Shown here piece after piece: positions 18,741 to 35,802 of a DNA stretch of 38,326 nucleotides (position 1 is its first letter; every line of letters begins with the position of its first letter). The DNA comes from Nitrospira sp. SB0662_bin_26 (GTDB lineage: Bacteria > Nitrospirota > Nitrospiria > Nitrospirales > UBA8639). The stretch is taken from contig VXOF01000014.1 in the NCBI GenBank assembly GCA_009840285.1, positions 1-38,326 on the forward strand. The letters run 5' to 3'. Position numbers and translations under genes: made by a program. The notes under the pieces are model-generated. The model was not told where the DNA came from and did no database searches. It saw nothing but the letters and a program-made list of their open reading frames with translations.

Positions 18741-20311
18741 CGCGTTTCAGCCTCTGTGTCGCCGGTTTCCGGGGAAGACGGGTTGGCGGCAATGACCGGC
18801 GGTGATACAGGAGACCCGGCGTTCACCACCATGACTTTGGCCTGCTTTTGCACGAGGTGATCGACGCTGGCGTGCATCACGTCCAACAGGGGTTTGGGAT
18901 AGAGCCCGATCCAGAACACGAAGAAGGCCAAAGGCGCCAGCGTGCCGATTTCCCGCCAGTTCATATCATGGAGCTTCGAGGTCATGTGTTGCGCCGGGAT
19001 GCCGTAGATCACGCGTTGCAACATCCAGAGAATATAGGCTGCCGCAAGAATGACCCCCAGGGCCGCGGCCGTGGCGACCGCCTTGCTCCACATGAAAGCC
19101 CCGAGTAGCACGAAGAACTCGCCGACGAAACTGTTCATGCCCGGCAATCCCACGGAGGACAACGCGAAGATCACGAGGAACGAAGCGTAGACCGGCATGG
19201 ACGCGGCGAGGCCCGAATTGTCCGCGATCTCCCGGCTGTGCGTTCGTTCGTACACGATGCCCACGCACAGGAAGAGCGCGCCGGTGGTGATGCCGTGGTT
19301 GACCATTTGCAGGATGGCGCCCTCGATCCCCTGGGCGTTCAACACGAAAATCCCCAGCGTGACGAATCCCATGTGGCTCACGCTGGAATAGGCGATGAGT
19401 TTCTTGAGATCGGCCTGGGCAAAGGCCATATAGGCGCCGTAGATGATGGCCACCACCGACAGGAAGAGCACCACCGAGGTGAACTGCTGCGTGGCATCCG
19501 GCAGCATGGGCAACGAGAAGCGCAGGAACCCGTAAGCGCCCAGTTTCAGCAACACGCTTGCCAGCATCACGCTGCCCGCGGTGGGGGCCTCCACGTGCGC
19601 ATCCGGCAACCACGTGTGGAACGGGAACATCGGCACTTTCACGGCAAACGCGGCGAAGAAGGCCCAGAACAACCAAGCTTGCAGCCATGCCGGATACTCG
19701 GCGTCGCTCAACGTGAGGATATCGAACGACTCTTTCCCGGCGTAAAAATAGAGCACGATAATCGCCACGAGCAGCAGGACGCTGCCGGCCAGGGTATACA
19801 GGAAAAACTTGATGGCCGCGTACACGCGATTGGGGCCGCCCCAGATCCCGATCAACAAATACATGGGGATCAGCATGGTTTCCCAGAACACGTAGAACAG
19901 CACGAAGTCCAACGAGACGAACACGCCCAGCGTGGCGGTTTCCATCACGAGCAGGCTGATCATGAATTCCCTGACGCGCGTCTCGATCGCGGTCCAGGAC
20001 ACCAGGACGCAGAGCGGCGTCAGCAGGGTGGTCAGCAGGACCAGGGGCAGGCTGATCCCGTCCACGCCCACCGCGTAGTTGATGGAGGGCGACGCGATCC
20101 ATTGGTGCGTTTCCACGAACTGCATGGCCGGCGTGGATTGATCGAACAGGATCCACGGTCCGAGAGAAACCACGAACCCCAGCGACGAGACTCCCAGGGC
20201 CACCCACTTGGCCAGGGCTTCTTCGACCAGGAGAATCGCGGCCACGCCCAACAAGGGCAGAAAGACGACCAGGGTCAGCCATGGAAATCCGCCGGAAGAC
20301 ATGTCGATCAA
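18737..20311 (-). CDS. nuoM: NADH-quinone oxidoreductase subunit M
   Basis: A 524-residue antiporter-like, proton-pumping subunit in the complex I membrane arm. The TM5 glutamate is in V-F-W-E-T-M-L-I-P-M-Y. The TM7 lysine is in A-V-K-V-P-M-F-P-F-H-T-W-L-P-D-A-H. The broken TM8 segment includes Q-A-D-L-K-K-L-I-A-Y-S-S-V-S-H-M-G. The C-terminal tail beyond residue 490 is hydrophilic and proline-rich (SPPVIAANPSSPETG). The gene lies 10 bp after nuoL and overlaps nuoN by 4 bp. Only one nuoM is present; some Nitrospira-type operons are reported to carry two. Confidence 0.96.
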   Translation of the reverse strand: MIDMSSGGFPWLTLVVFLPLLGVAAILLVEEALAKWVALGVSSLGFVVSLGPWILFDQSTPAMQFVETHQWIASPSINYAVGVDGISLPLVLLTTLLTPLCVLVSWTAIETRVREFMISLLVMETATLGVFVSLDFVLFYVFWETMLIPMYLLIGIWGGPNRVYAAIKFFLYTLAGSVLLLVAIIVLYFYAGKESFDILTLSDAEYPAWLQAWLFWAFFAAFAVKVPMFPFHTWLPDAHVEAPTAGSVMLASVLLKLGAYGFLRFSLPMLPDATQQFTSVVLFLSVVAIIYGAYMAFAQADLKKLIAYSSVSHMGFVTLGIFVLNAQGIEGAILQMVNHGITTGALFLCVGIVYERTHSREIADNSGLAASMPVYASFLVIFALSSVGLPGMNSFVGEFFVLLGAFMWSKAVATAAALGVILAAAYILWMLQRVIYGIPAQHMTSKLHDMNWREIGTLAPLAFFVFWIGLYPKPLLDVMHASVDHLVQKQAKVMVVNAGSPVSPPVIAANPSSPETGDTEAETR

Positions 20312-20321
20312 GAACTCCTCA

Positions 20322-22217
20322 TCAGAACAACAGATACGCGGTCAGGATGATGACCGCGCCCATGGCCATGCTGAGCGCGTAATTCTGCGTTTCGCCGGTT
20401 TGAATCAGGCGGGCCATCCATCCCCACCAGGCAAACCCGCGGGCCACGCCGTTCACCGCGTTATCGATGATGGCCACGTCCACTTTTTTCCACATCCGGT
20501 CCGCCAGCGTGAACGTGGGATTCACGAACGCCTTGTCATAGGCTTCGTCCACGTACCACTTGTTGAACGAGCCGCGATACAAGACGTGCCATTGGTTCAT
20601 CAGGCGTTCGGGCAGATCCGGCGACTTCACGTACAGGACGTAGGCCGCGGCAATGCCGAGCACGCCCGCCAACGTGGCTGCCAGCATGATGCCCGTGGCG
20701 ACCGCGCCATGATGCCCCGCGCCTTCACTGCCGGGGAAGGCCTGTTGCAGGAACTCCGGAATGCCCAAGTACCCCGTCGCGATGCTGAGTACGGCCAGCA
20801 CCAACAGAGGAACGGTCACGACCGATGATTGCTCATGCACATGGTCGGCGTGGTGCGGGTCCACGCGGGACTCTCCCCAAAAGGTCACGAAAACCAACCG
20901 GAAACTGTAGAAGGCCGTTAATCCCGCGGTGAGAATCCCAGCCACGGCCAGGACCTGTCCCAGCATTCCCGCGTTCCACGCGGACAGCAGCAATTCATCC
21001 TTGCTGAAGAATCCCGCGGTCAGCGGAAATCCGGCCAGGGCCAACGACCCGATGATGAACGTCCAATAGGTCACGGGCATTTTGTCCTTCAGCCCGCCCA
21101 TGCGTTGCATGTCCTGCTCGTGATGCACGGCCAGGATCACGGACCCGCATCCCAGGAAGAGCAACGCCTTGAACGCTCCGTGCGTCAGCAAATGATAGAT
21201 CCCGGCCACGTATCCTCCCAACCCGCACGCCATCATCATGTACCCGAGCTGGCTCAAGGTCGAATAGGCCACCACGCGCTTGATGTCATTTTGCGTCAGG
21301 GCGATGGTGGCGCCGACGATCATGGTCAAGCCGCCCACGATTGCCACCACGGTCATGGCCGCGGGAGACAGATTGTACAGGGGGGCCAACCGTGCCACCA
21401 TGAACACGCCCGCTGTCACCATGGTCGCGGCGTGAATCAAAGCGGAAATGGGCGTGGGCCCCTCCATGGCGTCGGGCAGCCACACGTGCAACGGCACCTG
21501 CGCGGACTTGCCCACGGCGCCGACGAACAGCAGCAGGCAGATCAGGGTCATCGCGGAGACTTCCCATCCGCCGCCGAACGCACCCAGCAGGTCGACCACG
21601 GCTCCGGTCTGGTTCGCGGCTTCGGCGAACACGGGCTGGTACTGTAAGGTCCCGAAGACCACGAACACCAACAGGATGCCGAGCAGGAACCCAAAGTCCC
21701 CGACCCGGTTGACGATGAACGCCTTGGTTGCCGCGGCCCTTGCCGTGTGACGGTCATACCAGTGCCCGATCAGCAGATAGGAACACAGGCCCACGGCTTC
21801 CCAGAACACGAACAGTTGGACGAAGTTATCGGACATGATCAGCATCAGCATGGAGAACGTGAACAACGCGATATTCGCGAAAAACCGCGCGTAGCCCGGT
21901 TCGCCGTGCATGTACCCGATGGTGTAGACGTGCACCAACCCGCTGACGATGGTCACCAGCAGCAACATGGCCGCGGTCAACTGATCCACGTAGAGCCCCA
22001 GCCTGATGGTGAGATCGCCGGAAGCCGCCCAGGTGTACAACGGGATTTCCAGCACGCGCCCGCCCGCGACTTCGGAAAAAGCCAGGAGCGACAGCAGGAA
22101 GGACAACCAGACCGCCGGTACGGCGATCAGGTGCGCGCGCTGCTTCAGGACGTGCCCGGCGAAGCTGAGCACGACGAAGGCCAGGAGCGGCAGGAGCGGG
22201 ATCAGGGCATACAGCAT
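20322..22217 (-). CDS. nuoL: NADH-quinone oxidoreductase subunit L
   Basis: The 631-residue distal proton-pumping subunit of complex I. The TM5 glutamate lies in V-F-W-E-A-V-G-L-C-S-Y. The TM7 lysine is in G-A-V-G-K-S-A-Q-V-P-L-H-V-W-L-P-D-A-M-E-G-P-T-P. The next channel residues are in Q-N-D-I-K-R-V-V-A-Y-S-T-L-S-Q-L-G. The C-terminal part contains the long amphipathic lateral helix (N-K-W-Y-V-D-E-A-Y-D-K-A-F-V-N) that clamps the membrane arm. Length is standard. It is 4 bp from nuoK, so translation is coupled. Confidence 0.97.
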   Translation of the reverse strand: MLYALIPLLPLLAFVVLSFAGHVLKQRAHLIAVPAVWLSFLLSLLAFSEVAGGRVLEIPLYTWAASGDLTIRLGLYVDQLTAAMLLLVTIVSGLVHVYTIGYMHGEPGYARFFANIALFTFSMLMLIMSDNFVQLFVFWEAVGLCSYLLIGHWYDRHTARAAATKAFIVNRVGDFGFLLGILLVFVVFGTLQYQPVFAEAANQTGAVVDLLGAFGGGWEVSAMTLICLLLFVGAVGKSAQVPLHVWLPDAMEGPTPISALIHAATMVTAGVFMVARLAPLYNLSPAAMTVVAIVGGLTMIVGATIALTQNDIKRVVAYSTLSQLGYMMMACGLGGYVAGIYHLLTHGAFKALLFLGCGSVILAVHHEQDMQRMGGLKDKMPVTYWTFIIGSLALAGFPLTAGFFSKDELLLSAWNAGMLGQVLAVAGILTAGLTAFYSFRLVFVTFWGESRVDPHHADHVHEQSSVVTVPLLVLAVLSIATGYLGIPEFLQQAFPGSEGAGHHGAVATGIMLAATLAGVLGIAAAYVLYVKSPDLPERLMNQWHVLYRGSFNKWYVDEAYDKAFVNPTFTLADRMWKKVDVAIIDNAVNGVARGFAWWGWMARLIQTGETQNYALSMAMGAVIILTAYLLF

Positions 22218-22221
22218 AGCG

Positions 22222-22527
22222 CTACCACTTCAACAGGCGGAAATCATCCACGTTGATACTGGCGTGATGACGGTAGAGGGCAATAATGATCGCGAGGCCC
22301 ACCGCCACTTCGGCGGCGGCCACGGTCAGGGCGAAGAACACGAAGACCTGCCCGGACAGGTTACCGAAATGGGAGGAAAAGGCCACGAAATTGATGTTCG
22401 TGGCGTTGAGCATCAACTCGATGGAGAGCAGAATGATAATGAGGTTCTTCCGGACCAGGACGCCGACGAGCCCGATGACGAACACCAGCCCGCTCAACAC
22501 CATGTAGAATTCCACGGGCACGCTCAT
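22222..22527 (-). CDS. nuoK: NADH-quinone oxidoreductase subunit K
   Basis: A 101-residue, three-helix membrane subunit, the standard length. The two buried glutamates needed for proton transfer are present: S-I-E-L-M-L-N-A in helix 2 and [10 protein letters not shown] in helix 3. It forms the antiporter-like module with NuoJ next to NuoN. It overlaps nuoJ by 4 bp (22524-22527) and is followed after 4 bp by nuoL. Confidence 0.97.
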
Positions 22528-23030
22528 TTCGATTCCATGATGCCTTTCTTGGATAAAATGACCGCGCCGATCATGGCCACCAGAAGGATGAGCGAGGCGA
22601 TTTCAAACGGGAACAAATAGGTGGAATACAGGATCTCCCCGATGGATTCCGTATTCCCCACGGCCGACCCTTCGCGTCCGGGTTCCGGCGTCCCGACGGT
22701 GAAGCCCCGGCTGACTGCGAGCAACACGGCTTCGGTCAGCAGCACCACCCCCAGGAACAACGCCACGGGCCCCTGCTGGTTGAACTGCTCTTCCCGTTTC
22801 ACGTTCAGGAGCATCACGACGAACAGGTAGAGCACCAGGATCGCCCCGGCGTACACGATAATCTGAATGGCGGCCAGGAACTCGGCGTGCAGGGTGACGT
22901 AAAGACCGGCCACATGAAAGAACATGACCAGCAGGGACAAGGCGCTGTAGATGGGGTTACGGAGCACCACGACGAGCGACGCGGCCATCACGATGACTGC
23001 GGCAAAGTACAGGAAGACGAATGTGGCCAC
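22524..23030 (-). CDS. nuoJ: NADH-quinone oxidoreductase subunit J
   Basis: A 168-residue, five-helix membrane subunit of complex I. Family signs are [10 protein letters not shown] near helix 2 and the helix-3 segment [16 protein letters not shown], whose pi-bulge couples quinone reduction to pumping. The loop after helix 4 is glycine- and glutamate-rich ([12 protein letters not shown]). It overlaps nuoK by 4 bp and lies 83 bp after nuoI, one of the larger gaps in the operon. Confidence 0.96.
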
Positions 23031-23113: not shown

Positions 23114-23653
23114 TCAAAATTCCTTTTCCGGAATGTCCTTGAAGGAGACGTTGAAATAGGCAACGTTGGGGTGCTGGAATTCCAACCGTTTTTCCCGTTC
23201 CGGAAACGCTCGATCTCCGATTGCCAATAGTTGTTCTTTGTTCAACTGCAAATTGCGTTTGTCGTACACGGCCCACTCGAATTCCTGCGACATGCCCAAG
23301 GCATCCACTGGACAGGCCTTGACGCACAACCCGCAGAACAGGCAGCGGGTCATGTCCATGTAATATTCCTTGGCGAACCGCTTGGTGGGTTCACCGGGCA
23401 CTTCGGCGCTCACCACGCGGATCACGCGAGAGGGACAGGCCGCCTCGCACAGGTCGCACCCCACACACTTCTCCGTATCGTCGTCGTATCGCAGCAACCC
23501 CAACATGCCCCGGTAATTCTCGGGCAACGGTTTCTTCACGTGGGGATACTCCAGGGTGATGGGACGATACTTCAGGAAATGCTTGAGAGTCTCCTTCATG
23601 CCCAAGAGGATTTCATAAAAGATCAGCGACTGAATCCACTTTTTGAGTTTCAT
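23114..23653 (-). CDS. nuoI: NADH-quinone oxidoreductase subunit I
   Basis: A 179-residue, TYKY-type ferredoxin subunit at the base of the peripheral arm. It carries two [4Fe-4S] clusters (N6a and N6b) in C-V-G-C-D-L-C-E-A-A-C-P and C-L-F-C-G-L-C-V-K-A-C-P-V. These pass electrons from NuoG towards cluster N2 in NuoB. An amphipathic N-terminal helix attaches it to the membrane. Eighteen bases separate it from nuoH. The length is normal. Confidence 0.97.
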   Translation of the reverse strand: MKLKKWIQSLIFYEILLGMKETLKHFLKYRPITLEYPHVKKPLPENYRGMLGLLRYDDDTEKCVGCDLCEAACPSRVIRVVSAEVPGEPTKRFAKEYYMDMTRCLFCGLCVKACPVDALGMSQEFEWAVYDKRNLQLNKEQLLAIGDRAFPEREKRLEFQHPNVAYFNVSFKDIPEKEF

Positions 23654-23671: not shown

Positions 23672-24736
23672 CTACCCATTGGGGAAGATGTAGGCAAGCA
23701 ACGACGTTACCACGATGTTCCCCAGAGCGATGGGCAACAGCACCTTCCACCCGAACCGCATCAACTGGTCGTACCGCAACCGCGGCAGCGTGGCCCGTAT
23801 CCAGAAAAACAGGAACAGGAAAAAGTAGACCTTCGCCGTAAACCAGAAAATCCCCGTCACCCAGGCGAAGACCCCGGGCGCCTGCAAGACCGGCAGGGGC
23901 GCGTGCCAACCGCCGAAGAACAGGACGGTGGACATGCACGACACCAGGATCATGTTCGCATATTCCGCCATGAAGAAAAACGCGAACCGCATGCCGCTGT
24001 ATTCCGTGAAGAACCCCGCGACGAGTTCGCTTTCCGCTTCCGGCAGGTCAAAGGGCAGCCGGTTGGTTTCGGCCACGGAGGCGATCAGAAAGATCACGAA
24101 GGCGATGAACTGCGGAAAGGGCACGGGGTCAAAGGCAAACCAGTTCCAGAACCCGCCGGCCTGGGCTTCGGTGATTTCCACCAGGCTCAAACTCCCCGCC
24201 AGCAACAACACCCCGACGATCGCCAAGCCCACGTTGAGTTCATAGCTGATCAACTGGGCCGCGGACCGGAGGCCACCCAGCAACGAATATTTGCTGTTGG
24301 AGGCCCACCCGCCCAGGATGACCCCATAGGCCCCGATGGACGCGAACGCCAGGATGTACAGCACGCCGATGTTGATGTCGCTGATCACGAAGGGCTTGAA
24401 TTCCACCCCCATGACGTCGATCGTCCAGTTCGGCCCGAACGGGATGACCGCAAACCCGATCAGGGCCGGCACCAGTACGAGAATGGGGGCGAGGCTGAAC
24501 ATGATCTTGTTCGCGCCGGCCGGGATGATGTCTTCCTTGAAAAACAACTTCAGCCCGTCGGCCACCGGCTGCAAGACACCATAGGGGCCGACTTCCATCG
24601 GGCCCATCCGGTCCTGCATCCAACTGAGCACTTTCCGCTCCAACAGGGTGAGTATCGCCACGGTAAGCAGGACCACGCCCATCACGGCCCCGATTTGCGA
24701 TAAGGTCAATGCCAATTTAATGCTGGTATCAAACAC
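23672..24736 (-). CDS. nuoH: NADH-quinone oxidoreductase subunit H
   Basis: A 354-residue membrane subunit with eight or so helices that forms the quinone-entry channel and links the two arms. It has the conserved E-R-K-V-L-S-W-M-Q-D-R-M-G-P loop after helix 1. The acidic loop L-P-E-A-E-S-E-L-V-A-G-F-F-T-E-Y-S-G is the proton-funnel segment. G-G-W-A-S-N-S-K-Y precedes a helix. The length is slightly above the E. coli subunit. It lies 34 bp after nuoG. Confidence 0.97.
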   Translation of the reverse strand: MFDTSIKLALTLSQIGAVMGVVLLTVAILTLLERKVLSWMQDRMGPMEVGPYGVLQPVADGLKLFFKEDIIPAGANKIMFSLAPILVLVPALIGFAVIPFGPNWTIDVMGVEFKPFVISDINIGVLYILAFASIGAYGVILGGWASNSKYSLLGGLRSAAQLISYELNVGLAIVGVLLLAGSLSLVEITEAQAGGFWNWFAFDPVPFPQFIAFVIFLIASVAETNRLPFDLPEAESELVAGFFTEYSGMRFAFFFMAEYANMILVSCMSTVLFFGGWHAPLPVLQAPGVFAWVTGIFWFTAKVYFFLFLFFWIRATLPRLRYDQLMRFGWKVLLPIALGNIVVTSLLAYIFPNG

Positions 24737-24770: not shown

Positions 24771-27434
24771 TCACTTTGTCACAGTGACGTGAGTCGTCTT
24801 CCACACGGGCACGTGGGTCTGCGGATCAACTTTCAACGAGAACAACGCGCGGACGGATTCGTCGAAATGCTCGGGGAACCATGCCACGACATCGGGCACG
24901 CGGTCGTTCAGTTTCACGGACACGGTGGCTTGCCCGCTATCGTTCGAGAGCCGGACGGCCTGGCCTTCCTCGATTCCCAATCGCCGGGCCTCACCGGTAT
25001 TGATGTGAAGCAGTCCATGACCTTCAATTTCCATCAATCCCTTGGCCCGCGTACTGTACTTTCCGGAATGATACAGGGACTGGACCAACCGTAACGTCAT
25101 CGTCCCTTCCGGAGCGGCGGGCGACTCATCCAGCGCGTACCGTTGATCCACGTCCTCCTTGAACCCGCTCGTCACGTATTGCGCGACCGCTTTTTCGTCG
25201 ACTTTCGGCGGTGTGGATGCCGGACCCAGCAGGCCATACCCCGGAATTACACCACGGATTTCCTTGAAGATTTCCCTGACCTCATTGTATTCGATGGGGT
25301 GCTCCATCAACACCGACAGGGCCGAAAACATTTCCCAATCGGGCCGGCTCTCTCCCAGCGGCTCGGTCGCTTGGCGGACGGGCTGGACGTGGCCCTCCGT
25401 ATTGGTAAACGTGCCGTCCTTTTCCATGGCCGAACAGGCGGGAAACACCACGTGGGCCCGCTTCGAGGTTTCCGTCAGAAACAGGTCCTGGCACACCAGA
25501 AATTCCAACGCATCCAGCGCCCCGGTCACATCGGCGTCCCCCGGCAATGATTCGACCGGGTTCTCTCCCACGATGAATAACGATTTGACGGCGCCGGTCC
25601 GGGCCCGGTTCAACAACTCCGGCAAGGTAGCCGACGCGCCGGCCGGTACCGCCTGCCCCCAGGTCCGCGTGAAGGTCTTTTGACTCTCTTCGTCGTGAAG
25701 GTCCGCGGGACCCGGGAAATATTCGGCCACGGCTCCCATTTCCACGGCGCCCTGGTCGTTGTTCCCTTCGGCCAGGCAACCCAAGCCCGAGCCCTGCCTC
25801 CGAAGATGCCCGGTCAGGATCTGAAGATCCATGAGGTTGGTCACCAGCCCTTCGCCGCCGAGCGAACGAAGCACTTCACGGCCGACCAGCACCACGGCGC
25901 GTTCGGCCTGCGTGTACGTCCTGGCCGCCGCTTCGATATTTTCTTGCGGGAGACCGGACTGCTCCCGAATCGCATCCCAGGAAACCCTGGCCACGCGGGT
26001 CAGGATCGTTTGCACGAATTCCGGCGCCTCACGCGCGACGTCCTCATGCACAAGATTCGACTCGACCACGGCCTTCACCAGCCCCAGGATGGCCGCGCCG
26101 AACTGCCCGCTCCGCACCTCCAGGTGTTGCCGGGACAGCGTCGCAATGTTACTCACGGTCGAGCGAGCCGGAAGCAGGGGCTCAAGCGTGATCAGCTGGG
26201 CGTCTGCGCGCTTCACGGCCTGTTTCACGTGCAGAGCCGTCACGGGATTGGACTCATTGACGTTGGTGCCCACCAGCATGATCACGCCGGCTTTGCCCAC
26301 GTCTTCGTAGCGAACCGTCCAGCGATGGGTGCCCTGCACCCGCCGGAGCGCCCGCACGCCGTTGATATGCCCGTACCGCGCGCTGCTGTCGATCTGATTC
26401 GTGCCGATCACCACGCGCATGAATTTCTGGAACAGATACAGGTCTTCGTTGGTGCAGCGCGTTGTGATGAGACCGCCGATCGCATCAGCCCCGTGCGTGG
26501 CTTTGATCGCTGTAAACTGCCGGGCCACGCGGTCCAACGCCTCTTCCCAGGTGACTTCGGCAAAGGAGCCGTCGGCCTGGCGCACGAGTGGATGCTGCAC
26601 GCGGTCTGGATGTTCCGCGGCGTGGTATCCGAAATAGCCGCGGACGCAGAGGTCCCCGTTGTTCCGGCCGGCACCCAGAGCCGAATTCACTTCGATCAAT
26701 TGATCGTCCTTTCGCTGGACCGTGATCTGGCACCCGTCCCCGCAATAGGAACAAATGGTCTCTGCCCGTTTGAGCATCCACGGGCGATAGTCATACATCG
26801 ACAACCGGCTGGTAATGGCCCCGACCGGGCAAATCTGGATGCACCCGCCGCACATGTCACATTCGAGTTCATTGCCGGACCAATGCGTGATCTGCGTGAG
26901 CGTGCCGCGTCCTTCTGCCGCCAACGCCTGCGCGTCCATGACTTCATCGCAATACCGCACGCAGCGCATGCACGACACGCAACGATTCATCTGCGTTTCG
27001 ATGACCGGTCCGAGATATTGTTTGGGGAAGACCCGCTTCAGTTCCGTGAACCGGCTGACCGTGGGTGTGTACTCGTGAGAAAAATCCTGCAAGTCACAAC
27101 GGCCGCCCTGGTCGCATACCGGACAATCCAGCGGGTGGTTGCCCAACAACAACTCCAGCACCGATTTTCGCGCGGACTCGACGTGCGGCACCGACGACCG
27201 CACCACCATGCCCTCGGCCACGCGCGTGCTGCACGAGGTTTGGAGTTTGGGAATCTTTTCGATTTCCACCAAGCACATCCGGCAATTCGCGTCCGGTTCC
27301 AACTTCGGATGGTAACAAAAGTGGGGCACCATGATGCCCACCTGCCGGGCCGCCTCGATCACGAGCGTACCTTCCGGCACCTCCGTGCGGATGCCATCGA
27401 TCGTGACCGTCACCATGGTGGAAGTGTTCGACAT
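24771..27434 (-). CDS. nuoG: NADH-quinone oxidoreductase subunit G
   Basis: The 887-residue, largest peripheral subunit. The N-terminal [2Fe-2S] ferredoxin uses C40, C51, C54 and C68. The N5 cluster has His100 with C104, C107 and C113. The C-V-S-C-M-R-C and C-D-M-C-G-G-C sets provide the other cubane. A molybdopterin-oxidoreductase-like domain follows and carries C228-x2-C231-x3-C235-x27-C263. These are the ligands of the extra cluster N7, which some lineages have lost. The C-terminal part is a formate-dehydrogenase-like domain without an obvious catalytic Cys or Sec. AGGA precedes the ATG. It lies 35 bp after nuoF. Confidence 0.97.
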   Translation of the reverse strand: MSNTSTMVTVTIDGIRTEVPEGTLVIEAARQVGIMVPHFCYHPKLEPDANCRMCLVEIEKIPKLQTSCSTRVAEGMVVRSSVPHVESARKSVLELLLGNHPLDCPVCDQGGRCDLQDFSHEYTPTVSRFTELKRVFPKQYLGPVIETQMNRCVSCMRCVRYCDEVMDAQALAAEGRGTLTQITHWSGNELECDMCGGCIQICPVGAITSRLSMYDYRPWMLKRAETICSYCGDGCQITVQRKDDQLIEVNSALGAGRNNGDLCVRGYFGYHAAEHPDRVQHPLVRQADGSFAEVTWEEALDRVARQFTAIKATHGADAIGGLITTRCTNEDLYLFQKFMRVVIGTNQIDSSARYGHINGVRALRRVQGTHRWTVRYEDVGKAGVIMLVGTNVNESNPVTALHVKQAVKRADAQLITLEPLLPARSTVSNIATLSRQHLEVRSGQFGAAILGLVKAVVESNLVHEDVAREAPEFVQTILTRVARVSWDAIREQSGLPQENIEAAARTYTQAERAVVLVGREVLRSLGGEGLVTNLMDLQILTGHLRRQGSGLGCLAEGNNDQGAVEMGAVAEYFPGPADLHDEESQKTFTRTWGQAVPAGASATLPELLNRARTGAVKSLFIVGENPVESLPGDADVTGALDALEFLVCQDLFLTETSKRAHVVFPACSAMEKDGTFTNTEGHVQPVRQATEPLGESRPDWEMFSALSVLMEHPIEYNEVREIFKEIRGVIPGYGLLGPASTPPKVDEKAVAQYVTSGFKEDVDQRYALDESPAAPEGTMTLRLVQSLYHSGKYSTRAKGLMEIEGHGLLHINTGEARRLGIEEGQAVRLSNDSGQATVSVKLNDRVPDVVAWFPEHFDESVRALFSLKVDPQTHVPVWKTTHVTVTK

Positions 27435-27469: not shown

Positions 27470-28783
27470 CTACCGCGCTAGGCTCAGGACGGGGATTTCT
27501 TTCCGGCTCCCCTTGAGCGCTTCGGCCTCCTCGATCAGGACCTCGTATTCATTCCGCCAATATTTCAACGTGCTCTGTACGGGAGCGATTTCCGCGTCGC
27601 CGAACGCACAGACCGTGCGGCCGCCGATGTTTTCGCAAATTTCCGTGAGCGTCCGTAAATCCTCCGGGCGTCCCTGCTTGTTCATGATCCGTTGCAGGAT
27701 TTGCACGATCCAGGAACTGCCTTCCCGGCAGGGCGTACACTTCCCGCAGGATTCATGATAGAAAAATTCCATCAACCGGAGGGCCGCCCACACCATGCTC
27801 GTGCCTTCTTCCATCACGGTGATCCCGCCGGAGCCCGACATCGAGCCCGCCATAGCCACCGATTCGAAATCCATTTGCACGTCCACGTGATCCGGGGTCA
27901 AAAACGGCGCCGAGGCCCCGCCCGGAATGAACGCCTTGAGGGGCTTGTCCGACCGCATGCCGCCGCCCAGTTCAAAAATCAGGTCACGGAACGTCGCGTT
28001 TACGGGCAATTCATAATTCCCCGGGCGTTTCACGTGGCCGCTCAAACAAAACACCCTGGTTCCCGTACTCTTGGGCGGGACGCCGATGGAGGCGAACCAG
28101 TCGGCTCCCCGATTCACGATGTGCGGGACGTTCGCCAGCGTCTCCACGTTATTGACCACCGTGGGTTTCTGGTAGAGGCCGTGCGTAGCCGGAAACGGCG
28201 GCTTGGTCCGGGGTTTCCCCCGCTTGCCTTCCAGCGATTCGAGCAGCGCGGTTTCCTCACCACAGATATAGGCCCCGGCTCCCACGTGCACGGAGACGTT
28301 CACGGTGACGCCGCTGCCGTAAATGTCGGAACCCAGGTGCCCGGCCTGATACGCATCGGCAATCGCTCGCTCCAGGATCTTCGCCGCCAGACGGAATTCC
28401 CCTCTTATATAAATGTAGGCGGTTTGCGCGCCGATGGCGTAACAGGAAATAGCAATGCCTTCCAGGACCTGGTGGGGGTCCCGCTCCATCAATTGACGGT
28501 CCTTGAACGTGCCGGGCTCGCTCTCGTCGGCGTTACAACAGAGGTATTTGGGACCCGGATGGTCCTTGGGAATGAACCCCCATTTCACGCCGGTGGGGAA
28601 CCCTGCGCCGCCCCGGCCCCGCAGGCCGGATTTTTTCACCATCTCGATAAGGTCATTGGGCGGCGTCTTACCCAGGACGGCTTTCAATGCCGTGTACCCG
28701 CCGGTCCCTTCATAATCGGCCAGGGACCCGGTGTAGCCGGGTTGTTCCATGTTGGTCAGGAGAATTTTCTCGCAGGTCTTCAT
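27470..28783 (-). CDS. nuoF: NADH-quinone oxidoreductase subunit F
   Basis: About 437 residues; the NADH- and FMN-binding subunit where electrons enter complex I. The FMN/NADH loop G-L-R-G-R-G-G-A-G-F-P-T-G is intact. Cluster N3 ligands are in E-S-C-G-K-C-T-P-C-R-E-G, with the fourth Cys in T-V-C-A-F-G-D-A. The start is the ATG at 28783, overlapping the nuoE stop (ATGA), so translation is coupled. An upstream extension to 28843 only runs through the 3' end of nuoE and is rejected. Confidence 0.97.
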   Translation of the reverse strand: MKTCEKILLTNMEQPGYTGSLADYEGTGGYTALKAVLGKTPPNDLIEMVKKSGLRGRGGAGFPTGVKWGFIPKDHPGPKYLCCNADESEPGTFKDRQLMERDPHQVLEGIAISCYAIGAQTAYIYIRGEFRLAAKILERAIADAYQAGHLGSDIYGSGVTVNVSVHVGAGAYICGEETALLESLEGKRGKPRTKPPFPATHGLYQKPTVVNNVETLANVPHIVNRGADWFASIGVPPKSTGTRVFCLSGHVKRPGNYELPVNATFRDLIFELGGGMRSDKPLKAFIPGGASAPFLTPDHVDVQMDFESVAMAGSMSGSGGITVMEEGTSMVWAALRLMEFFYHESCGKCTPCREGSSWIVQILQRIMNKQGRPEDLRTLTEICENIGGRTVCAFGDAEIAPVQSTLKYWRNEYEVLIEEAEALKGSRKEIPVLSLAR

Positions 28784-29316
28784 TGTGATACGACGCCCTC
28801 GCCCCGTTCGGGCACCAGAAAGGGACCGCTTTTCAGCGAACAATCACCGGTTTCCCGCAAGTCCTGCAGGATCCGCCCGACTTTGTCTTCCGTGAGCCGC
28901 TCGTAATAGTCGTCGTTGATCTGCATCATCGGCCCGGTCCCACATGACCCCAGACATTCCACCGTGCTCAGGGTAAACATCTTGTCCTCGGTGGTCTGGC
29001 CCAGGCCGATACCCAAGTGCTTGCGCAACCATTCGATCAGGGGGTCGGCCCCGACCAACGCGCACATCAACGACCGGCACACCTGGACGTGGAACTTCCC
29101 GATGGGCTTGAGGTTGAGCATGGTATAAAACGTCGCGGTCTCGAACACCTGGGGCGGGGTCAGGTCCAGAATCCCGGCAATCTCCCGGATGGCCGCCTGG
29201 CTCACGTATCCCTCTTCCTTCTGCGCCAGGTTCAACAACGGCAGCATCGCCGAGCGCTTCACCGGATACCGGCTCAGGATTTCGTTCACGGCATCTTGAT
29301 GCTTATGGAAAATCAT
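28780..29316 (-). CDS. nuoE: NADH-quinone oxidoreductase subunit E
   Basis: A 178-residue, thioredoxin-fold ferredoxin with the N1a [2Fe-2S] cluster. The four ligands are in V-C-R-S-L-M-C and C-L-G-S-C-G-T-G. It forms the NADH dehydrogenase module with NuoF and NuoG. The N-terminal helical part (A-M-L-P-L-L-N-L-A-Q-K-E-E-G) is typical. The C-terminus carries a short extra tail (G-P-F-L-V-P-E-R-G-E-G) beyond the cluster domain. It lies 43 bp after nuoCD. Confidence 0.96.
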   Translation of the reverse strand: MIFHKHQDAVNEILSRYPVKRSAMLPLLNLAQKEEGYVSQAAIREIAGILDLTPPQVFETATFYTMLNLKPIGKFHVQVCRSLMCALVGADPLIEWLRKHLGIGLGQTTEDKMFTLSTVECLGSCGTGPMMQINDDYYERLTEDKVGRILQDLRETGDCSLKSGPFLVPERGEGVVSQ

Positions 29317-29359: not shown

Positions 29360-31111
29360 TTACCTGTCGCACTCGCCCATGACAATGTCGTAGGTGCCGA
29401 AGATAGTGATAATATCAGAAATCAGATAGCCGCGTGCCATAAAATCAAACGCGCCCATGTGTACAAACGACGGCGAGCGGATTTTCATCCGATACGGCCG
29501 CGGGCTCCCGTCGCTGATCAGGAAGAACCCCAGTTCACCCTTGGGCACCTCGGTCGCGCAATAGGTTTCCCCTTTCGGCGGCTTGAACCCCTGCGTAAAG
29601 ATGATGAAATGATGGATCAGGCTTTCCATGTCCCGCATGACGTTGGGTTTGGCCGGGGGAATGACTTTCGGCATATCCGCCACGATGGGACCCTCCGGCA
29701 ACTGGTCCAGGCATTGCTCAATGATGCGCGCGCTTTGTTTCATTTCCTCGACGCGAATCCAATACCGGTCATAGGTATCCCCGCCCTTGCCGACCGGCAC
29801 GTCCCATTCCACCCGGTCGTACACGCCGTACGGCTCGAGCTTGCGCACGTCATAGGCCACGCCCGACCCGCGCAACGTCGGCCCGGTCAGCCCGAAGTTG
29901 ATCGCGTCTTCCGCGGAAATGACCGCCACGTTTTTGGTCCGGGCCACCCAGATCCGGTTCCGTTGCAGTAACGTGTCATATTCCTGCACGTGTTCGGGAA
30001 AGGTCTTCAAAAATTCGCGCAGGCGGTCGACCAACGCCGGCGTGAGATCACCGTCCACTCCCCCGATCCGAAAATAATTCAGCGTCAGGCGCGCGCCGCA
30101 AAGTTGTTCGAAAAAGTCGAGCAGGACTTCCCGTTCGCGGAACGTCCAGAAGAACACCGTCATGGCCCCGATATCCAGGGCCTGCGTACCCAACCAGAAG
30201 AGGTGGCCGACGATCCGCTGGACCTCGGCCACGATCGTCCGGATGTACTCGGCCCGCTCCGGAATCGTGACGCCCACCAGTTTTTCCACGGCACGCACGT
30301 AGGCGTAATTGTTCGTCATGGCGCACACGTAATCCAGACGATCCGTGTGCGGAACGACCTGCATGTAATGGAGGCCTTCGGCAAGCTTTTCCACGCCGCG
30401 ATGCAAATACCCCATGTCGGGAATGGCTTTGGCGACTCGCTCGCCGTCCAGTTCCAACACCACGCGTAACACGCCGTGCGTGCTGGGATGCTGCGGTCCC
30501 ATGTTCAGCAACAGTTCGGTCGTGCGCTTGGCGGCTTCAGGCTTATCACCGGCCAGAAAGACGTGCCGCTGATCCTGTGGAATCTCGCGTTCGGTCCATT
30601 CGCTTTCCGGCTCATCCAAACGGGGAATAAAATCAAAGGTGCTTCTCCACCCCTTGCCTTCGGTGGGAAAATCCTTCCGGAGCGGATGCCCTTCCTCGTA
30701 GTCCTCGGGCAACAAAATCCTGCGCAGGTCCGGGTGCCCGTCAAACCTGATCCCCATCAGATCGTAGACCTCGCGCTCCAGGAAATTCGCGCCTTTCCAA
30801 ATGGACGTCACGGACCCGATGGTGGGATTGTCTTCCGGCAACCGGGCCTTCAAACGAATCCTGGTGTTATGCGGAAGGGAGAGAAAGTGGTAGATGACCT
30901 CAAAGCGTTCCAGGTCGTCGGGATAGTCGGCCGAGCAGATGTCGGTGATGTGATCGAAGGCCATCCCGGGATCATCGTGGAGGAACCTCGCCACGTCCAC
31001 GAGATCCTGCGCCCGCACCTGGGCTGACAAATCCCCCCGTTGCGGGTCCTCGCGCACGGACAGCACGGCCTCGGGAAAACGCTCGTGTAAGGTTTCAAGA
31101 ACTCGATGCAT
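29360..31111 (-). CDS. nuoCD: NADH-quinone oxidoreductase fused subunits C and D
   Basis: A 583-residue fusion, as in E. coli. The NuoC part (about 1-165) ends with E-R-E-V-Y-D-L-M-G-I-R-F-D-G-H-P-D-L-R-R-I-L-like sequence. The NuoD part starts near residue 190. It has the quinone-site motif G-P-Q-H208-P-S-T-H212-G and the Y-L-H-R238-G-V-E-K-L and D-R-L-D-Y-V segments near cluster N2. Arg238 is the position that corresponds, by my alignment from memory, to the arginine dimethylated in mitochondrial NDUFS2. A methyltransferase gene of that modifying family heads this operon. The gap to nuoB is 68 bp. Confidence 0.97.
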   Translation of the reverse strand: MHRVLETLHERFPEAVLSVREDPQRGDLSAQVRAQDLVDVARFLHDDPGMAFDHITDICSADYPDDLERFEVIYHFLSLPHNTRIRLKARLPEDNPTIGSVTSIWKGANFLEREVYDLMGIRFDGHPDLRRILLPEDYEEGHPLRKDFPTEGKGWRSTFDFIPRLDEPESEWTEREIPQDQRHVFLAGDKPEAAKRTTELLLNMGPQHPSTHGVLRVVLELDGERVAKAIPDMGYLHRGVEKLAEGLHYMQVVPHTDRLDYVCAMTNNYAYVRAVEKLVGVTIPERAEYIRTIVAEVQRIVGHLFWLGTQALDIGAMTVFFWTFREREVLLDFFEQLCGARLTLNYFRIGGVDGDLTPALVDRLREFLKTFPEHVQEYDTLLQRNRIWVARTKNVAVISAEDAINFGLTGPTLRGSGVAYDVRKLEPYGVYDRVEWDVPVGKGGDTYDRYWIRVEEMKQSARIIEQCLDQLPEGPIVADMPKVIPPAKPNVMRDMESLIHHFIIFTQGFKPPKGETYCATEVPKGELGFFLISDGSPRPYRMKIRSPSFVHMGAFDFMARGYLISDIITIFGTYDIVMGECDR

Positions 31112-31179: not shown

Positions 31180-31659
31180 TTATTTCACGAATACCTTTTC
31201 CTTCTGAATCTTTTCCTGCAACTTGATCAGGGCGTCCAAGAGCGCTTCCGGACGCGGGGGGCAGCCCGCTACGTAGACGTCCACAGGCACGATTTGATCC
31301 ACCCCCTGCACTACGCTGTAACTGTTGTAATGGTTGCCTGAGGTCGCGCATGACCCCATGGAGATCACGTATCTCGGTTCGGCCATCTGATCGTAGATCC
31401 GCCGGATCACGGGCGCCATCTTTCGACACACGGTCCCGGCCACGATCATGACGTCGGACTGTCTGGGAGAGGCCCGAAAGACTCCGGCCCCGAACCGGTC
31501 GATGTCGTACCTCGAGGACACCGACGCAATCATCTCGATGGCGCAACAGGCCAGCCCGAACGTCATCGGCCACAAAGCCGACTTCCGGCACCAACTCACC
31601 AGGTAATCGAGATTGGTGGTAATGATGTTGGAGTCAAACTGTCGTTCGAGCATGCTCAT
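31180..31659 (-). CDS. nuoB: NADH-quinone oxidoreductase subunit B
   Basis: About 159 residues; holds the terminal [4Fe-4S] cluster N2 that reduces quinone. The ligands are the tandem cysteines in [10 protein letters not shown], then G-S-C-A-T-S-G and A-G-C-P-P-R-P. All are present. The start is uncertain: ATG at 31659 has GGGGTG upstream, an in-frame GTG lies at 31668 and another ATG at 31653. The 203 bp between it and nuoA hold no gene; a purine/pyrimidine-rich dyad (CCCCTC near 31731 and GGAGGGG near 31746) is the only structure there. Confidence 0.96.
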
Positions 31660-31862
31660 GGTTGTCACCCCGTCGAAATGGCATCTCCTATATGTATGTG
31701 CTCATTCATTGACCATTTCCGCCGTCTCTTCCCCCTCATTTGTAAGGAGGGGTGAAGGGGAGGTATAACCGACGCCCGAACTACCCGCCCCACCACGGCG
31801 AAAACAAACGGTTACACTCGTTCTCGGGGCGGAATTCCACACGCTCCGGAACGCCGTATGAC

Positions 31863-32234
31863 TTAATCCCACTCCAACGCCCCTTTTTTCCAGACGTACC
31901 AGAACCCCACGACCAGGATGGCGATGAAGACCCCCATCTCAATGAGGCCCAACAGTCCCAACTGGTGAAACACCACGGCCCACGGGAACATAAAGACGAT
32001 TTCGATATCGAACACCACGAACAACATCGCGATGATGTAATACCGCATCGGGAATTGAACGCGGGCGTCCATAAAGAGCGGGCTCCCGCTCTCATAGGGA
32101 AGCAGTTTCGCGCGATAGGGCCGGCTGGGCCGCACGATCCATCCCGCCACAAGCGATACCACGCCGAACCCCAGCGCAATCACCGCAAAGATGGCGATGG
32201 GGATATAATTCAAAGGAACCGATTCGCCGCCCAT
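31863..32234 (-). CDS. nuoA: NADH-quinone oxidoreductase subunit A
   Basis: A 123-residue, three-helix membrane subunit at the quinone-channel side. The conserved acidic segment F-V-V-F-D-I-E-I-V-F-M-F-P-W-A is present, and the loop before it has Y-E-S-G-S-P-L-F (the usual form contains Y-E-C-G). The Ser in place of Cys in that loop is worth noting but is not catalytic in bacteria. It is the first nuo gene and lies 36 bp after the MidA-like methyltransferase. Confidence 0.95.
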   Translation of the reverse strand: MGGESVPLNYIPIAIFAVIALGFGVVSLVAGWIVRPSRPYRAKLLPYESGSPLFMDARVQFPMRYYIIAMLFVVFDIEIVFMFPWAVVFHQLGLLGLIEMGVFIAILVVGFWYVWKKGALEWD

Positions 32235-32270
32235 CTCAGATCTTCACTTGCCTTACCACCCCATTGATGT

Positions 32271-33479
32271 TCAAGGGACCATCTCCAACACCGATTCAAA
32301 AAACGCCCGGTGGCGCAAGCCACGAAGCGTCGGGACGACAATCCCCTTGTGTTGCATCAGTACTTTAAACGTCGTGCCGATGCCGTGCGGTCTCAACAAC
32401 TGGGCTGCAGCCTGGACCGCTTCCGATTCCTGATCGCATCCCTCGACCAATTCATCGATCCCGAGGCTCATCAAGAAATGCTGGAGGTTCGTAAACCCCG
32501 TCGTGGTCAACCCAACCTGCTCACCGGTTCGGGCAAGGCTCGAAAAATTTACGTGCGCCGTCAAATCCTGCTCTCCGACCCTGGTGAAAGGATCCGTCGT
32601 CACCGTGTGCCGGTAGTACCCCATCAGGGTCCCGTTCTTTCGTTCGGTAGCGAAATAATCCTGGGCGGTATGGCCGTAATCAATCGTGATCACGACGCCA
32701 CGATCAAGCACCCGCGCAACCTGTTTGATCCAAGACACGGCTTCCAGGTTGATTTCCGTGGTAAAACCGACGGGCAACTCCACGCCTAGGTCGGACAGGA
32801 ACGATGCCAATTCAGGCGTAGACGGCTCGCCCCATCGTTCCTGCAACGCGCGGTCGCGGCTGATCACGTACAATTCCCGGAGACCATCTTCCTCCATGCG
32901 AACCCTGTGGACCGGAAACGCATCCACCAATTCATTCGAGAGCAACGTGCTGGTCAGACTGCCGTCCGGAATCGACTGAAGATCGCCAACCCATCGAATC
33001 CCGACTCCTTGCTCCTGCCAGGCAGCCAGAGTGTCCTGTTGTCGCCGGCGAAAGACCGGACTGCGTTCGACCAGGATGCATGCCAAACGGGGTAGGAGTG
33101 AGGCCTGTTGTTCCCGGCATTCCTGCAACAGATCCCTGAGCAACGTCCCGTCACCCGGCCCCATCTCCACGAGATGAAAAACCGGGGGATGCCCGAGCCG
33201 TTCGTCAATCTCTGCGAATTGACGGACCAGACACTTGGCCAGGATCGGGGAAAGACTCGGAACGGTGAAGAAATCACCCCCCGCCCGACCGATTGGAGAA
33301 GTCGCGAAGGGAGACCGGCCGCCGCCCGTCGTATAGTACCCATGCTCCTCATCATAAAGGGCGAGCTCCATGAAACGCGCAAACGTCAATGGACCCGTCT
33401 CTTGAATGAGCGTGGTCATGTGCTGCATCAAAGGTGAATCCGTCGATTCCATGCCTTGATTGCCGTCCTGACGCATCAT
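32271..33479 (-). CDS. MidA/NDUFAF7-family SAM-dependent methyltransferase (COG1565)
   Basis: A 402-residue cytoplasmic methyltransferase. Family signs are G-P-L-T-F-A-R-F-M-E-L-A-L-Y near the N-terminus, G-Y-Y-T-T-G, then G-G-D-F-F-T-V-P-S-L-S-P. The SAM site V-E-M-G-P-G-D-G-T-L-L-R is at 104-115. T-L-L-S-N-E-L-V-D-A-F-P-V-H and I-D-Y-G-H follow. In mitochondria the homologue NDUFAF7 dimethylates an arginine of NDUFS2, the NuoD counterpart, and is needed for complex I assembly. Here the gene sits 36 bp before nuoA on the same strand, so the genomic context fits that role. AGGA lies upstream of the ATG at 33479. Bacterial members are otherwise little studied. Confidence 0.9.
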   Translation of the reverse strand: MMRQDGNQGMESTDSPLMQHMTTLIQETGPLTFARFMELALYDEEHGYYTTGGGRSPFATSPIGRAGGDFFTVPSLSPILAKCLVRQFAEIDERLGHPPVFHLVEMGPGDGTLLRDLLQECREQQASLLPRLACILVERSPVFRRRQQDTLAAWQEQGVGIRWVGDLQSIPDGSLTSTLLSNELVDAFPVHRVRMEEDGLRELYVISRDRALQERWGEPSTPELASFLSDLGVELPVGFTTEINLEAVSWIKQVARVLDRGVVITIDYGHTAQDYFATERKNGTLMGYYRHTVTTDPFTRVGEQDLTAHVNFSSLARTGEQVGLTTTGFTNLQHFLMSLGIDELVEGCDQESEAVQAAAQLLRPHGIGTTFKVLMQHKGIVVPTLRGLRHRAFFESVLEMVP

Positions 33480-33606
33480 CCTTAGTTTCCTGTCATTCTG
33501 AGCCTAACGCCTGTCCTGGGTCTGTCGAGGAAAGAATTTGCCGGAACGCCGTTTTCCTGACACCAAACCCATAGGACCCATCCCAACCATGGGCCAAAAG
33601 ATCTAT

Positions 33607-33635
33607 AAATTAGCCATCCGTCAACTGTTAGTCAA
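33607..33635 (-). promoter_or_regulatory. Candidate promoter of the midA-nuo operon
   Basis: On the minus strand TTGACT (33630-33635) and TAATTT (33607-33612) are 17 bp apart, about 130 bp before the methyltransferase ATG. The -10 match is weak. The transposon ends 15 bp upstream. Confidence 0.3.
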
Positions 33636-33650: not shown

Positions 33651-33672
33651 GGTAGTGTCTCAGTTTGAATTT
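33651..33672 (+). repeat. Left terminal inverted repeat (22 bp)
   Basis: It begins GGTAGTGTCTCAGTTT and matches the right end without mismatch. The transposase stop codon (TGA, minus strand, 33660-33662) lies within it. Confidence 0.93.
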
Positions 33673-34550
33673 CTCTTTTTGTACGGTCCCCGCTTTTTCG
33701 GTTCAGGTTTCCGAGCGTCAATCAGATTCAGCACGTCCTCCCATTCCCACACGTGATCCGTCAAACTCGCTTGCATGGCCGGTGTCACCCGCAGGCTTTT
33801 GTGAATCTTCACGAAATTGTAGAAGACGAAGTACAGGGCCAGCGCATGGCAATGGTTGTCGATCTTCTTAGAGAAGGCATTCGTCAAGCGGGTGAACCGT
33901 CGTAGACTCATTCTCATGGTGAGGTTGTGCCGCTCCACATGAGAAGTTGAGACGTGCTTTTTCTCTGGATTGCCTTGAACCCGTTGCTTTCGTGCGCCCT
34001 TACACACGGACGGGCTGTACTTCCGTTCCGGTCCCGGCTCTGGTGATTCCCCGTAGAGTTTCACCAGCTGAGCATAATCAATGTTATTCCCGAAGGCGTC
34101 TTCTACGGCTTCCAAATACACCTTGAGTCCGTCCGTCGTGAGTTGAACGCGGGTTGCCAGACGCGATTCCAAATCCCGCATGAACTCCGTGGCGTACCCC
34201 GCGTCCCGATCCCCCACCATCCACGACAAGATCAGTTTCGATTCACTCTCAAGGGCTGTCCAAGTCCACACATCACCGGCTTGCTCAGGGGCTGCCTGGG
34301 CTGCCCTCACGTTCTTTTGCTTGGCGTAGCAGAAAGACCAGATCTCATCGCATTGCACTTTGGAAGCGTGGACGTTGCGGACATGCTCATCGTGAAAGGC
34401 TTCACAGGCTTGGCCCGCTTCCACCAAGAGTTTCGTCACCGTGTTGATGCTCACGCCCACAATACGCGAAATTGTCCGCATGCTGGAGCCCTCAACCAAC
34501 ATGGAGAGAATCTGAATGCGCTTCGTATTTGGCAATGTGTTCATGTTCAT
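33660..34550 (-). CDS. IS1-family transposase (single ORF)
   Basis: A 296-residue DDE transposase made as one continuous frame, unlike classic IS1, which needs a frameshift between InsA and InsB. The N-terminus has an HTH (about 13-45; I-L-S-M-L-V-E-G...I-S-R-I-V-G-V-S). The catalytic triad is D68 in Q-C-D-E-I-W-S, D140 in T-T-D-G-L and E206 in S-H-V-E-R-H-N-L, followed by the family's F-S-K-K helix and N-F-V-K-I-H-K-S-L. The basic tail ([12 protein letters not shown]) probably binds DNA. The stop lies in the inverted repeat. A consensus promoter sits so close to the start that the mRNA is probably leaderless, beginning at Met1 or Met3 (34544). Confidence 0.93.
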
Positions 34551-34665: not shown

Positions 34666-35802
34666 ATGAAAAATGACCCCGAACCAGATATTGGAAAGCA
34701 TCCAGGCGCCTATCTCCGTGATCTGCTTAACGCGAGAGGATTAACGCAACGCGACCTTACCTCGATTCTTGGGATAGCGCATACTGGCATAAATATGATC
34801 ATTGCCGGGAAAGTCGGAATTAGTGCAAAGATGTCAAAAGCCTTGGGACTGGCATTGGGGTATCCCCCATTACATTTTGCTGCTCTCCAAACCGCCTATG
34901 ACGTAGCGCGAGCAGCTAATCCAGATGAAATGGTTTCAATTCGCGCCAAGATGCATACGACATATCCGATACGATCCATGATGAATCGTGGCTGGCTTCA
35001 TGATTCAGATGCCGAAGATATCCAGCGACAGCTTGCTCTGTTCTTTGAGGTCAACGATATGGGAGAGATCCCATATCTCGCTCACGCTCCGAAGAAAACG
35101 CGCTATGAAGAAAAAGACATCCCGCCAGCGCAGTTAGCGTGGCTATTCAGAGTCAAACAAATTTCAAGATCAATGGCTGTACCGCGCTACTCCGCAAGGG
35201 CTTTAAAGAAAGCTATTGAGCAGATGAAGCGCATGCGTATTGCTCCTGAAGAAGCACGACATGTACCAAGGCTTCTATCAGAGTGTGGGGTGAGGTACGT
35301 TATCGTTGAACCATTGCCAAAATCGAATATCGATGGTGTATGCCTATGGTTGAACAAAGACACTCCGGTAATCGGGATGTCTGCACGGTACGACCGTATT
35401 GATAACTTTTGGTTTGTTCTCAGGCATGAATGCGAACACGTGCTTCGAGGGCATGGCCTAAATTCTGATCAGTGGATGCTCGACGCCGACATTGAGGGGC
35501 AGCGAGCCGATCCAAATAGCGATCTCCAGGAAGAAGAACAACAAGCGAATGACGCTGCTGCTGATTTCTGTGTTCCGTCAGATGCCTTGAAATCATTCAT
35601 CAGGAGAAAGCATCCCATATATGCCGAACAAGATGTCTTGGGGTTTGCGCAAATCCACGGCATCGCTCCAGGATTGATCGTGGGACAGCTTCAACACTAT
35701 TTGAAGCGATACCAATATTTACGTCACCATCTGGTCAAAATACGACACATAGTGCTTCCGAATTCCATTGTGGATGGATGGGGGTATGTTGCCCCTTCTT
35801 AG
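34666..35802 (+). CDS. Fused XRE-HTH regulator and ImmA/IrrE (M78) metalloprotease
   Basis: A 378-residue cytoplasmic protein. Residues 12-70 form a Cro/C1 HTH (L-T-Q-R-D-L-T-S-I-L-G-I-A-H-T-G-I-N). The C-terminal half carries H254-E-C-E-H258, the HEXXH zinc site of ImmA/IrrE peptidases, and an E-E-E-Q-Q-A-N-D-A-A-A-D-F helix (from 289) that supplies the third ligand in this family. In ICEBs1, separate ImmR repressor and ImmA protease form an induction switch; here both are in one chain. HigA-like antitoxins with M78 domains are an alternative reading. A 6-codon frame (ATG 34656 to TGA 34676) overlaps the start and may couple translation. The downstream 158-residue gene follows after 14 bp. 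Confidence 0.88.
   Translation: MKNDPEPDIGKHPGAYLRDLLNARGLTQRDLTSILGIAHTGINMIIAGKVGISAKMSKALGLALGYPPLHFAALQTAYDVARAANPDEMVSIRAKMHTTYPIRSMMNRGWLHDSDAEDIQRQLALFFEVNDMGEIPYLAHAPKKTRYEEKDIPPAQLAWLFRVKQISRSMAVPRYSARALKKAIEQMKRMRIAPEEARHVPRLLSECGVRYVIVEPLPKSNIDGVCLWLNKDTPVIGMSARYDRIDNFWFVLRHECEHVLRGHGLNSDQWMLDADIEGQRADPNSDLQEEEQQANDAAADFCVPSDALKSFIRRKHPIYAEQDVLGFAQIHGIAPGLIVGQLQHYLKRYQYLRHHLVKIRHIVLPNSIVDGWGYVAPS

Follow-up and report, generated by a model that had tools for sequence, protein, structure and literature searches.

What does a gene for an NDUFAF7/MidA-type methyltransferase do at the head of a complex I operon in a bacterium, and does its product modify a subunit encoded in the same operon? 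The question is raised by a 38,326-nt stretch of DNA (hereafter, the window) from Nitrospira sp. SB0662_bin_26 (contig VXOF01000014.1, assembly GCA_009840285.1). Excerpts of Carroll et al. (2013, PMC3750175) report symmetric dimethylation that is complete at bovine Arg85 and occurs likewise in human, Pichia pastoris and Paracoccus denitrificans, along with an unmodified arginine in E. coli and Thr at this site in Thermus. The human mark has been tied to NDUFAF7 and to complex I assembly (passages in Rhein et al. 2013, PMC3829151, and in a review, PMC9006661), and the arginine, located 3.7 A from the iron-sulphur cluster N2, is suggested to help hold NDUFS2 and NDUFS7 together (excerpt of Hameedi et al. 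2021, PMC8042128). The function of prokaryotic MidA, in the words of the excerpted 2025 Wolbachia paper (PMC12455994), has been inferred only in silico.

The midA gene and the nuo operon of the window

The midA gene (32271-33479, minus strand, ATG start) encodes a 402-aa class I SAM-dependent methyltransferase, a typical representative of an established family. The match to PF02636 (Methyltransf_28; 8.9e-67) covers residues 83-330 and profile positions 1-249 of 249, that is, the full-length domain, and this is the sole Pfam family detected at E<=0.001; NCBIfam yielded no match, and a distant kinship with the canonical PRMT family may nevertheless exist. The closest solved relatives identified with phmmer are 4f3n (8.6e-41), 1zkd (4.9e-35) and 5ztz, the NDUFAF7 homologue of Dictyostelium (1.2e-19). 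An AlphaFold model built from 20 sequences (mean pLDDT 85) matches five MidA/COG1565 entries with Z scores of 37.6-43.6, over stretches of 345-366 residues, the next best score being 15.9; in this predicted model, the MidA-type fold is not confined to the core shared by methyltransferases and takes in the entire chain. The closest solved structures are COG1565/DUF185 proteins, namely 4f3n and 4g67 from Burkholderia thailandensis (Z 42.7-43.6, with 43.6 for 4g67), which are joined by 1zkd from Rhodopseudomonas palustris (Z 37.6); the titles of these entries name no substrate. Together with the PF02636 match, the fold match to Dictyostelium 5zu0 (Z 40.9, rmsd 2.4 over 365 residues, 22% identity) bears out the NDUFAF7/MidA-type identity proposed in an earlier note on this DNA. 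The protein shares with human NDUFAF7 and Dictyostelium MidA the family, the fold and the candidate target motif, LHRG next to N2; unlike these proteins, it is encoded inside a nuo operon and is known here from the sequence and a predicted fold, and the bacterial proteins read NELxDA where the Dictyostelium one reads QEFFDA. Residues E105, G107, G109, N182, E183, D186, D267, Y268 and G269 are invariant in alignments of 15, 9 and 20 sequences, in keeping with conservation of the SAM-binding glycine motif and the acidic motifs of the family. The start could be M1 (33479), M2 or M10 (33452); the gene of a congener, G081, begins at M10. A candidate second MidA in the window's genome (contig C29) was rejected, as the weak PF02636 match there resembles class I methyltransferases in general.

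The gene following midA on the same strand, after a gap of 36 bp (32235-32270), is nuoA (31863-32234; PF00507, 2.2e-37), so that the ORF coordinates agree with the earlier description of midA as the head of the nuo operon. The span originally given for the methyltransferase, 32234-33479, does contain the gene, but its lower bound is the first base of nuoA and thus takes in the gap. The order after nuoA is B-CD-E-F-G-H-I-J-K-L-M-N, all on the minus strand: nuoB (31180-31668; PF01058, 1.7e-28; nuoB_fam, 3.9e-73), nuoCD (29360-31111; 583 aa; PF00346, 3.2e-120; PF00329, 2.3e-46; TIGR01962 NuoD, 2.7e-172), nuoE (28780-29316; PF01257, 2.1e-54), nuoF (27470-28843, with the true start probably further downstream; PF01512, 5e-53), nuoG (24771-27434; PF00384, 1.5e-59; TIGR01973) and nuoH (23672-24736; PF00146, 1.2e-128). 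The family scan covered B to H; nuoI (23114-23653), nuoJ (22524-23030), nuoK (22222-22527), nuoL (20322-22217), nuoM (18737-20311) and nuoN (17265-18740) are named by order and, when used as queries, recovered the same order in relatives. NuoCD, the proposed substrate, reads GYLHRG in translation, as noted before, and its Arg238 (codon at 31398-31400, minus strand, a place computed from the ORF) aligns within the LHRG of mammalian NDUFS2 (6g2j) and corresponds to human NDUFS2 Arg85. Elsewhere in the window, the gene at 7465-8571 (minus strand) encodes a Rieske ferredoxin domain fused to an NADPH-dependent FMN reductase domain.

Upstream of midA, the window shares with two congeners (G081 and G065) a conserved block whose core (33602-33631, minus strand), aligned in both, is a candidate operon promoter. 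The 24-base exact form of the core is found in 5 of 311 loci, in every case ahead of a midA gene that belongs either to the window's genus or to L096 (a contig under the name Nitrospira sp. SB0677_bin_15, with a MidA that matches that of the window at 88%); the number of occurrences expected by chance in the window is 0. The 36-bp gap is too small for a block of such length, and the location of the block fits a putative promoter ahead of midA and hence before the whole operon. The canonical promoter picked up by a scan (34580-34552) was discarded, as it sits at an IS1-like gene and not at midA; no RNA structure was detected in the midA leader (z +1.48). The IS1-like transposase gene itself lies at 33660-34550 (minus strand) upstream of midA. 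Because the similarity between the window and G081 ends just past the conserved block, the IS1-like element was probably inserted beside the operon promoter, leaving the latter intact. The product of the gene at 34666-35802 (plus strand) combines a helix-turn-helix with an IrrE-like Peptidase_M78 domain and weakly matches HigA.

Linkage of midA to complex I genes in Nitrospirota and other phyla

Among the 148 Nitrospirota genomes sampled, 117 encode PF02636 and 139 a member of the NuoA family. In 36 of 37 Nitrospirales genomes, nuoA comes immediately after midA (in 3 of these 36, extra stretches were required to establish the order); in G105, the exception, midA is directly followed by nuoH-nuoI-nuoJ. 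Given this near-universal arrangement, the midA-nuoA order is not due to chance, and the linkage expected from the window alone holds in related genomes. The pair is kept within Nitrospirales even where the MidA identity drops to about 44%. In other genomes of the class, midA is found before nuoA in 2 of 3. Outside the class, where linkage was judged among the matches listed, 3 of 4 genomes of family f6 carry midA ahead of nuoA at a distance of 4.4-4.8 kb, both genes in the same orientation, and in one of its members (G011) the intervening ORFs include flavoprotein, ferredoxin-thioredoxin-reductase-like and ABM-domain genes; in the remaining families, midA and nuoA are apart among those matches.

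The linkage recurs in three other phyla, Pseudomonadota, Cyanobacteriota and Aquificota, in different positions. In Pseudomonadota (180 genomes; MidA in 138, PF00346 in 163), midA is located 11.9-13.1 kb after NuoD in 20 of the 138 MidA-bearing genomes (in 44 of the 138, a single listed contig carries both genes); this spacing corresponds, in the loci inspected, to a position just after nuoN, and all 20 pairs are on the same strand. The count requires a single contig and so leaves out G509, with midA by nuoN and NuoD on another contig. Among 117 Cyanobacteriota, 53 have a strong MidA (4 more have weak matches only), and in 12 of the 53 (31 with both genes on one contig), midA is within 3 kb of NuoD/NdhH, again always on the same strand (12/12); in 10 of these 12, ndhH is upstream of midA, and two genomes (G193 and G213) show the arrangement midA-nuoA-nuoB-nuoC-nuoD, as in the window. 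MidA is present in 82 of 101 Aquificota, and for the 26 strongest of the 82, short forms left out, the order nuoCD-nuoI-midA is seen in 17 (19 have both genes on one contig), all 17 on the same strand. By a rough estimate, chance would place a given gene on the same strand within 3 kb of NuoD in about 1 genome in 1000.

Most MidA genes show no linkage to complex I. A scan of named genomes yielded 80 MidA loci, 24 with some nuo match in the flanks and 56 with no nuo gene seen, some of the latter with short flanks; in Azospirillum, for example, midA lies between lgt and pgeF. For phylogenetic analysis, 7 of 213 MidA loci were dropped owing to internal stops in the aligned stretch and 24 owing to short flanks, and clustering retained 132 of the remaining 182 sequences. 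The resulting tree agrees with phyla for the most part (for 15 groups, 17 changes against a possible minimum of 14), and the linkage label changes 18 times on it. Repeated capture of midA by complex I operons is the simplest reading of this tree; repeated loss of an old midA-nuo linkage is a possible alternative. No published description of midA beside nuo genes was found in the open-licence literature searched, and, as far as that search extends, the recurrence of midA within complex I operons across several phyla is apparently undescribed.

The NuoD arginine and the co-occurrence of MidA with complex I

The NuoD site was read in 134 genomes, with NuoD matches below 190 bits left out; G006, G012, G016, G025 and G171 yielded no NuoD reading, and the NuoD proteins of Thermus, Actinomycetota and Archaea lay outside this survey. 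At least one Arg-type NuoD is present in all 78 MidA-bearing genomes read, a comparison that might have contradicted the substrate model, even if Arg is frequent at this site. Four of these genomes, three Acidobacteriota and one from Thermomicrobiales, encode a Thr-type (LHTG) NuoD in addition to the Arg-type (LHRG) one (locus pairs L341/L361, L347/L363, L349/L364 and L343/L350). Arg is also found in all 56 MidA-lacking genomes read; because it is kept in these genomes, the arginine is no signature of methylation and is needed without it. The conserved arginine, which the earlier note had offered in support of methylation, was accordingly ruled out as evidence and carries no weight, all the more so given that E. 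coli keeps this arginine unmethylated. The further claim of the note, that arginine methylation of complex I is an old bacterial process, retains its support from linkage and loses that from the kept arginine; it is in part already in print (excerpt of PMC3750175). A rule whereby loss of MidA would go with loss of the arginine was likewise ruled out, considering that R is present in all 18 MidA-lacking Bacteroidota in which the site was read. The E. coli-type HHR(G) occurs in 10 of the 56 MidA-lacking genomes versus one of the 78 MidA-bearing ones, and the latter also has an LHR copy; because 9 of the 10 are Pseudomonadota, this association may be a single lineage trait. The Bacteroidota genome G574 (L326) has an E. 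coli-type NuoD reading HHRGAEKM that was perhaps horizontally acquired.

In Cyanobacteriota, MidA is present in 53 of 78 genomes with PF00346 versus 0 of 39 without it, and in Pseudomonadota in 135 of 163 versus 3 of 17, counts that are confounded by ancestry and by the matches of PF00346 to related hydrogenase subunits. The three Pseudomonadota with MidA and no PF00346 match are G488, G529 and G561, and from other draws G114, G106 and G161 also have MidA and no PF00346 match; in MidA-bearing G171, the only PF00346 match is hydrogenase-like and reads Lys at the site. Complex I can do without MidA, because in Bacteroidota PF00346 is present in 106 of 118 genomes and a strong PF02636 match in one, the Chitinophaga genome that served as the centre. 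PF02636 has no match in the E. coli control genome.

The window's genome (G000) additionally encodes, on contig C89 (L032 and L306), another nuo operon, which comprises A, B, C, D, G, I, J, K, L, two copies of M, and N; nuoE, nuoF, nuoH and midA were looked for in the C89 operon and not found there. The complex I encoded by this operon, with its two NuoM, may depend on the operon linked to midA for NuoH. LHRG is likewise the reading in the NuoD of the C89 operon, and an attempted contrast between MidA-linked and unlinked operons showed no difference at the site, both reading LHRG in the Nitrospirales pairs read. In the reduced, 2.0-Mb Nitrospirales genome G105 (L307, L308), midA-nuoH-nuoI-nuoJ are kept and nuoA-G of that operon are absent; the sole NuoA found belongs to the second operon, which also has an Arg-type NuoD. 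The leftover midA-nuoH piece could supply NuoH in this organism, and MidA would then serve the NuoD of the second operon.

Proposed role of MidA and competing explanations

The preferred reading, to which we assign a probability of roughly 0.74, is that bacterial MidA, the product of the first gene of the nuo operon, symmetrically dimethylates Arg238 of NuoCD and thereby helps to assemble complex I. This model builds on the family, the fold, the conserved operon, the linkage recurring in four phyla and the Arg-type NuoD in every MidA-bearing genome read; from there, transcription, substrate, residue, chemistry and the effect on assembly are steps that we infer. Specifically, midA would be transcribed as the first gene of the operon from the candidate promoter upstream of it, and MidA would meet newly made NuoCD and symmetrically dimethylate Arg238, the counterpart of NDUFS2 Arg85, beside cluster N2. 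The methylation would occur before or during docking of NuoCD on NuoB and would thus help complex I assembly; in Nitrospirales, MidA probably acts on NuoD from either complex I operon. In Paracoccus denitrificans, which belongs to a different phylum from Nitrospirota, the equivalent residue of NuoD/Nqo4 carries symmetric dimethylarginine.

An unlikely alternative is that MidA aids assembly through another subunit, or as a docking chaperone, with Arg238 dispensable to the effect. Such a role would be compatible with the differences in the linked subunit genes between phyla (nuoA, nuoN, nuoI, ndhH) and with the persistence of midA beside nuoH in G105 after the loss of nuoA-G from that operon. 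However, G105 retains an Arg-type NuoD in its second operon, depletion of NDUFAF7 in human cells lowers the dimethylation of NDUFS2 Arg85 (as stated in part of PMC9006661), and Paracoccus carries the modification (excerpt of PMC3750175). Still less probable is that MidA is a broader or different methyltransferase, acting on other proteins or on DNA, such that its linkage to nuo genes reflects only co-expression with energy metabolism. Wolbachia MidA expressed in E. coli was associated with 166 high-quality methylated bases, a DNA methylation that its authors call preliminary in the excerpted text (PMC12455994), and both the lgt-midA-pgeF context in Azospirillum and the few genomes with MidA and no NuoD match would agree with such a function; against it, the linkage is specific to complex I genes in four phyla with differing arrangements, and MidA is missing from all 39 Cyanobacteriota without PF00346. 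Finally, it is very improbable that the linkage arose by chance or reflects one inherited gene order devoid of functional significance, since, even if the Nitrospirales order could derive from one inheritance, the linkage spans four phyla in differing arrangements and always on the same strand, its label changes 18 times on a tree largely following phyla, and the Nitrospirales pair outlasts the divergence of MidA.

If MidA does methylate NuoD, the age of this step can be considered. With slightly better than even odds, dimethylation of the NuoD arginine by MidA would be an ancestral or very early step of bacterial complex I assembly, found well outside Proteobacteria (in Nitrospirota, in Cyanobacteriota with their NDH-1, and in Aquificota), with no fewer than 4 captures of the gene by complex I operons. 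Under this scenario, MidA would have been lost, and the bare arginine kept, in most Bacteroidota and in lineages of the E. coli type (HHRG, no MidA), and mitochondria would have inherited one branch.

The recurrent placement of midA among nuo genes makes NuoD methylation the best-supported function of MidA. Human NDUFAF7 is required for complex I assembly, so that removal of the enzyme removes the complex and masks the role of the methyl groups. Bacteria offer natural comparisons, namely Nitrospira with two operons, Acidobacteriota with both Arg and Thr NuoD and the E. coli type without MidA, which make the role and the age of the modification testable, including beyond Proteobacteria. Because relatives of midA adjoin complex I genes in several phyla and in different positions, the linkage suggests that a NuoD-methylating assembly step is widespread in bacteria.
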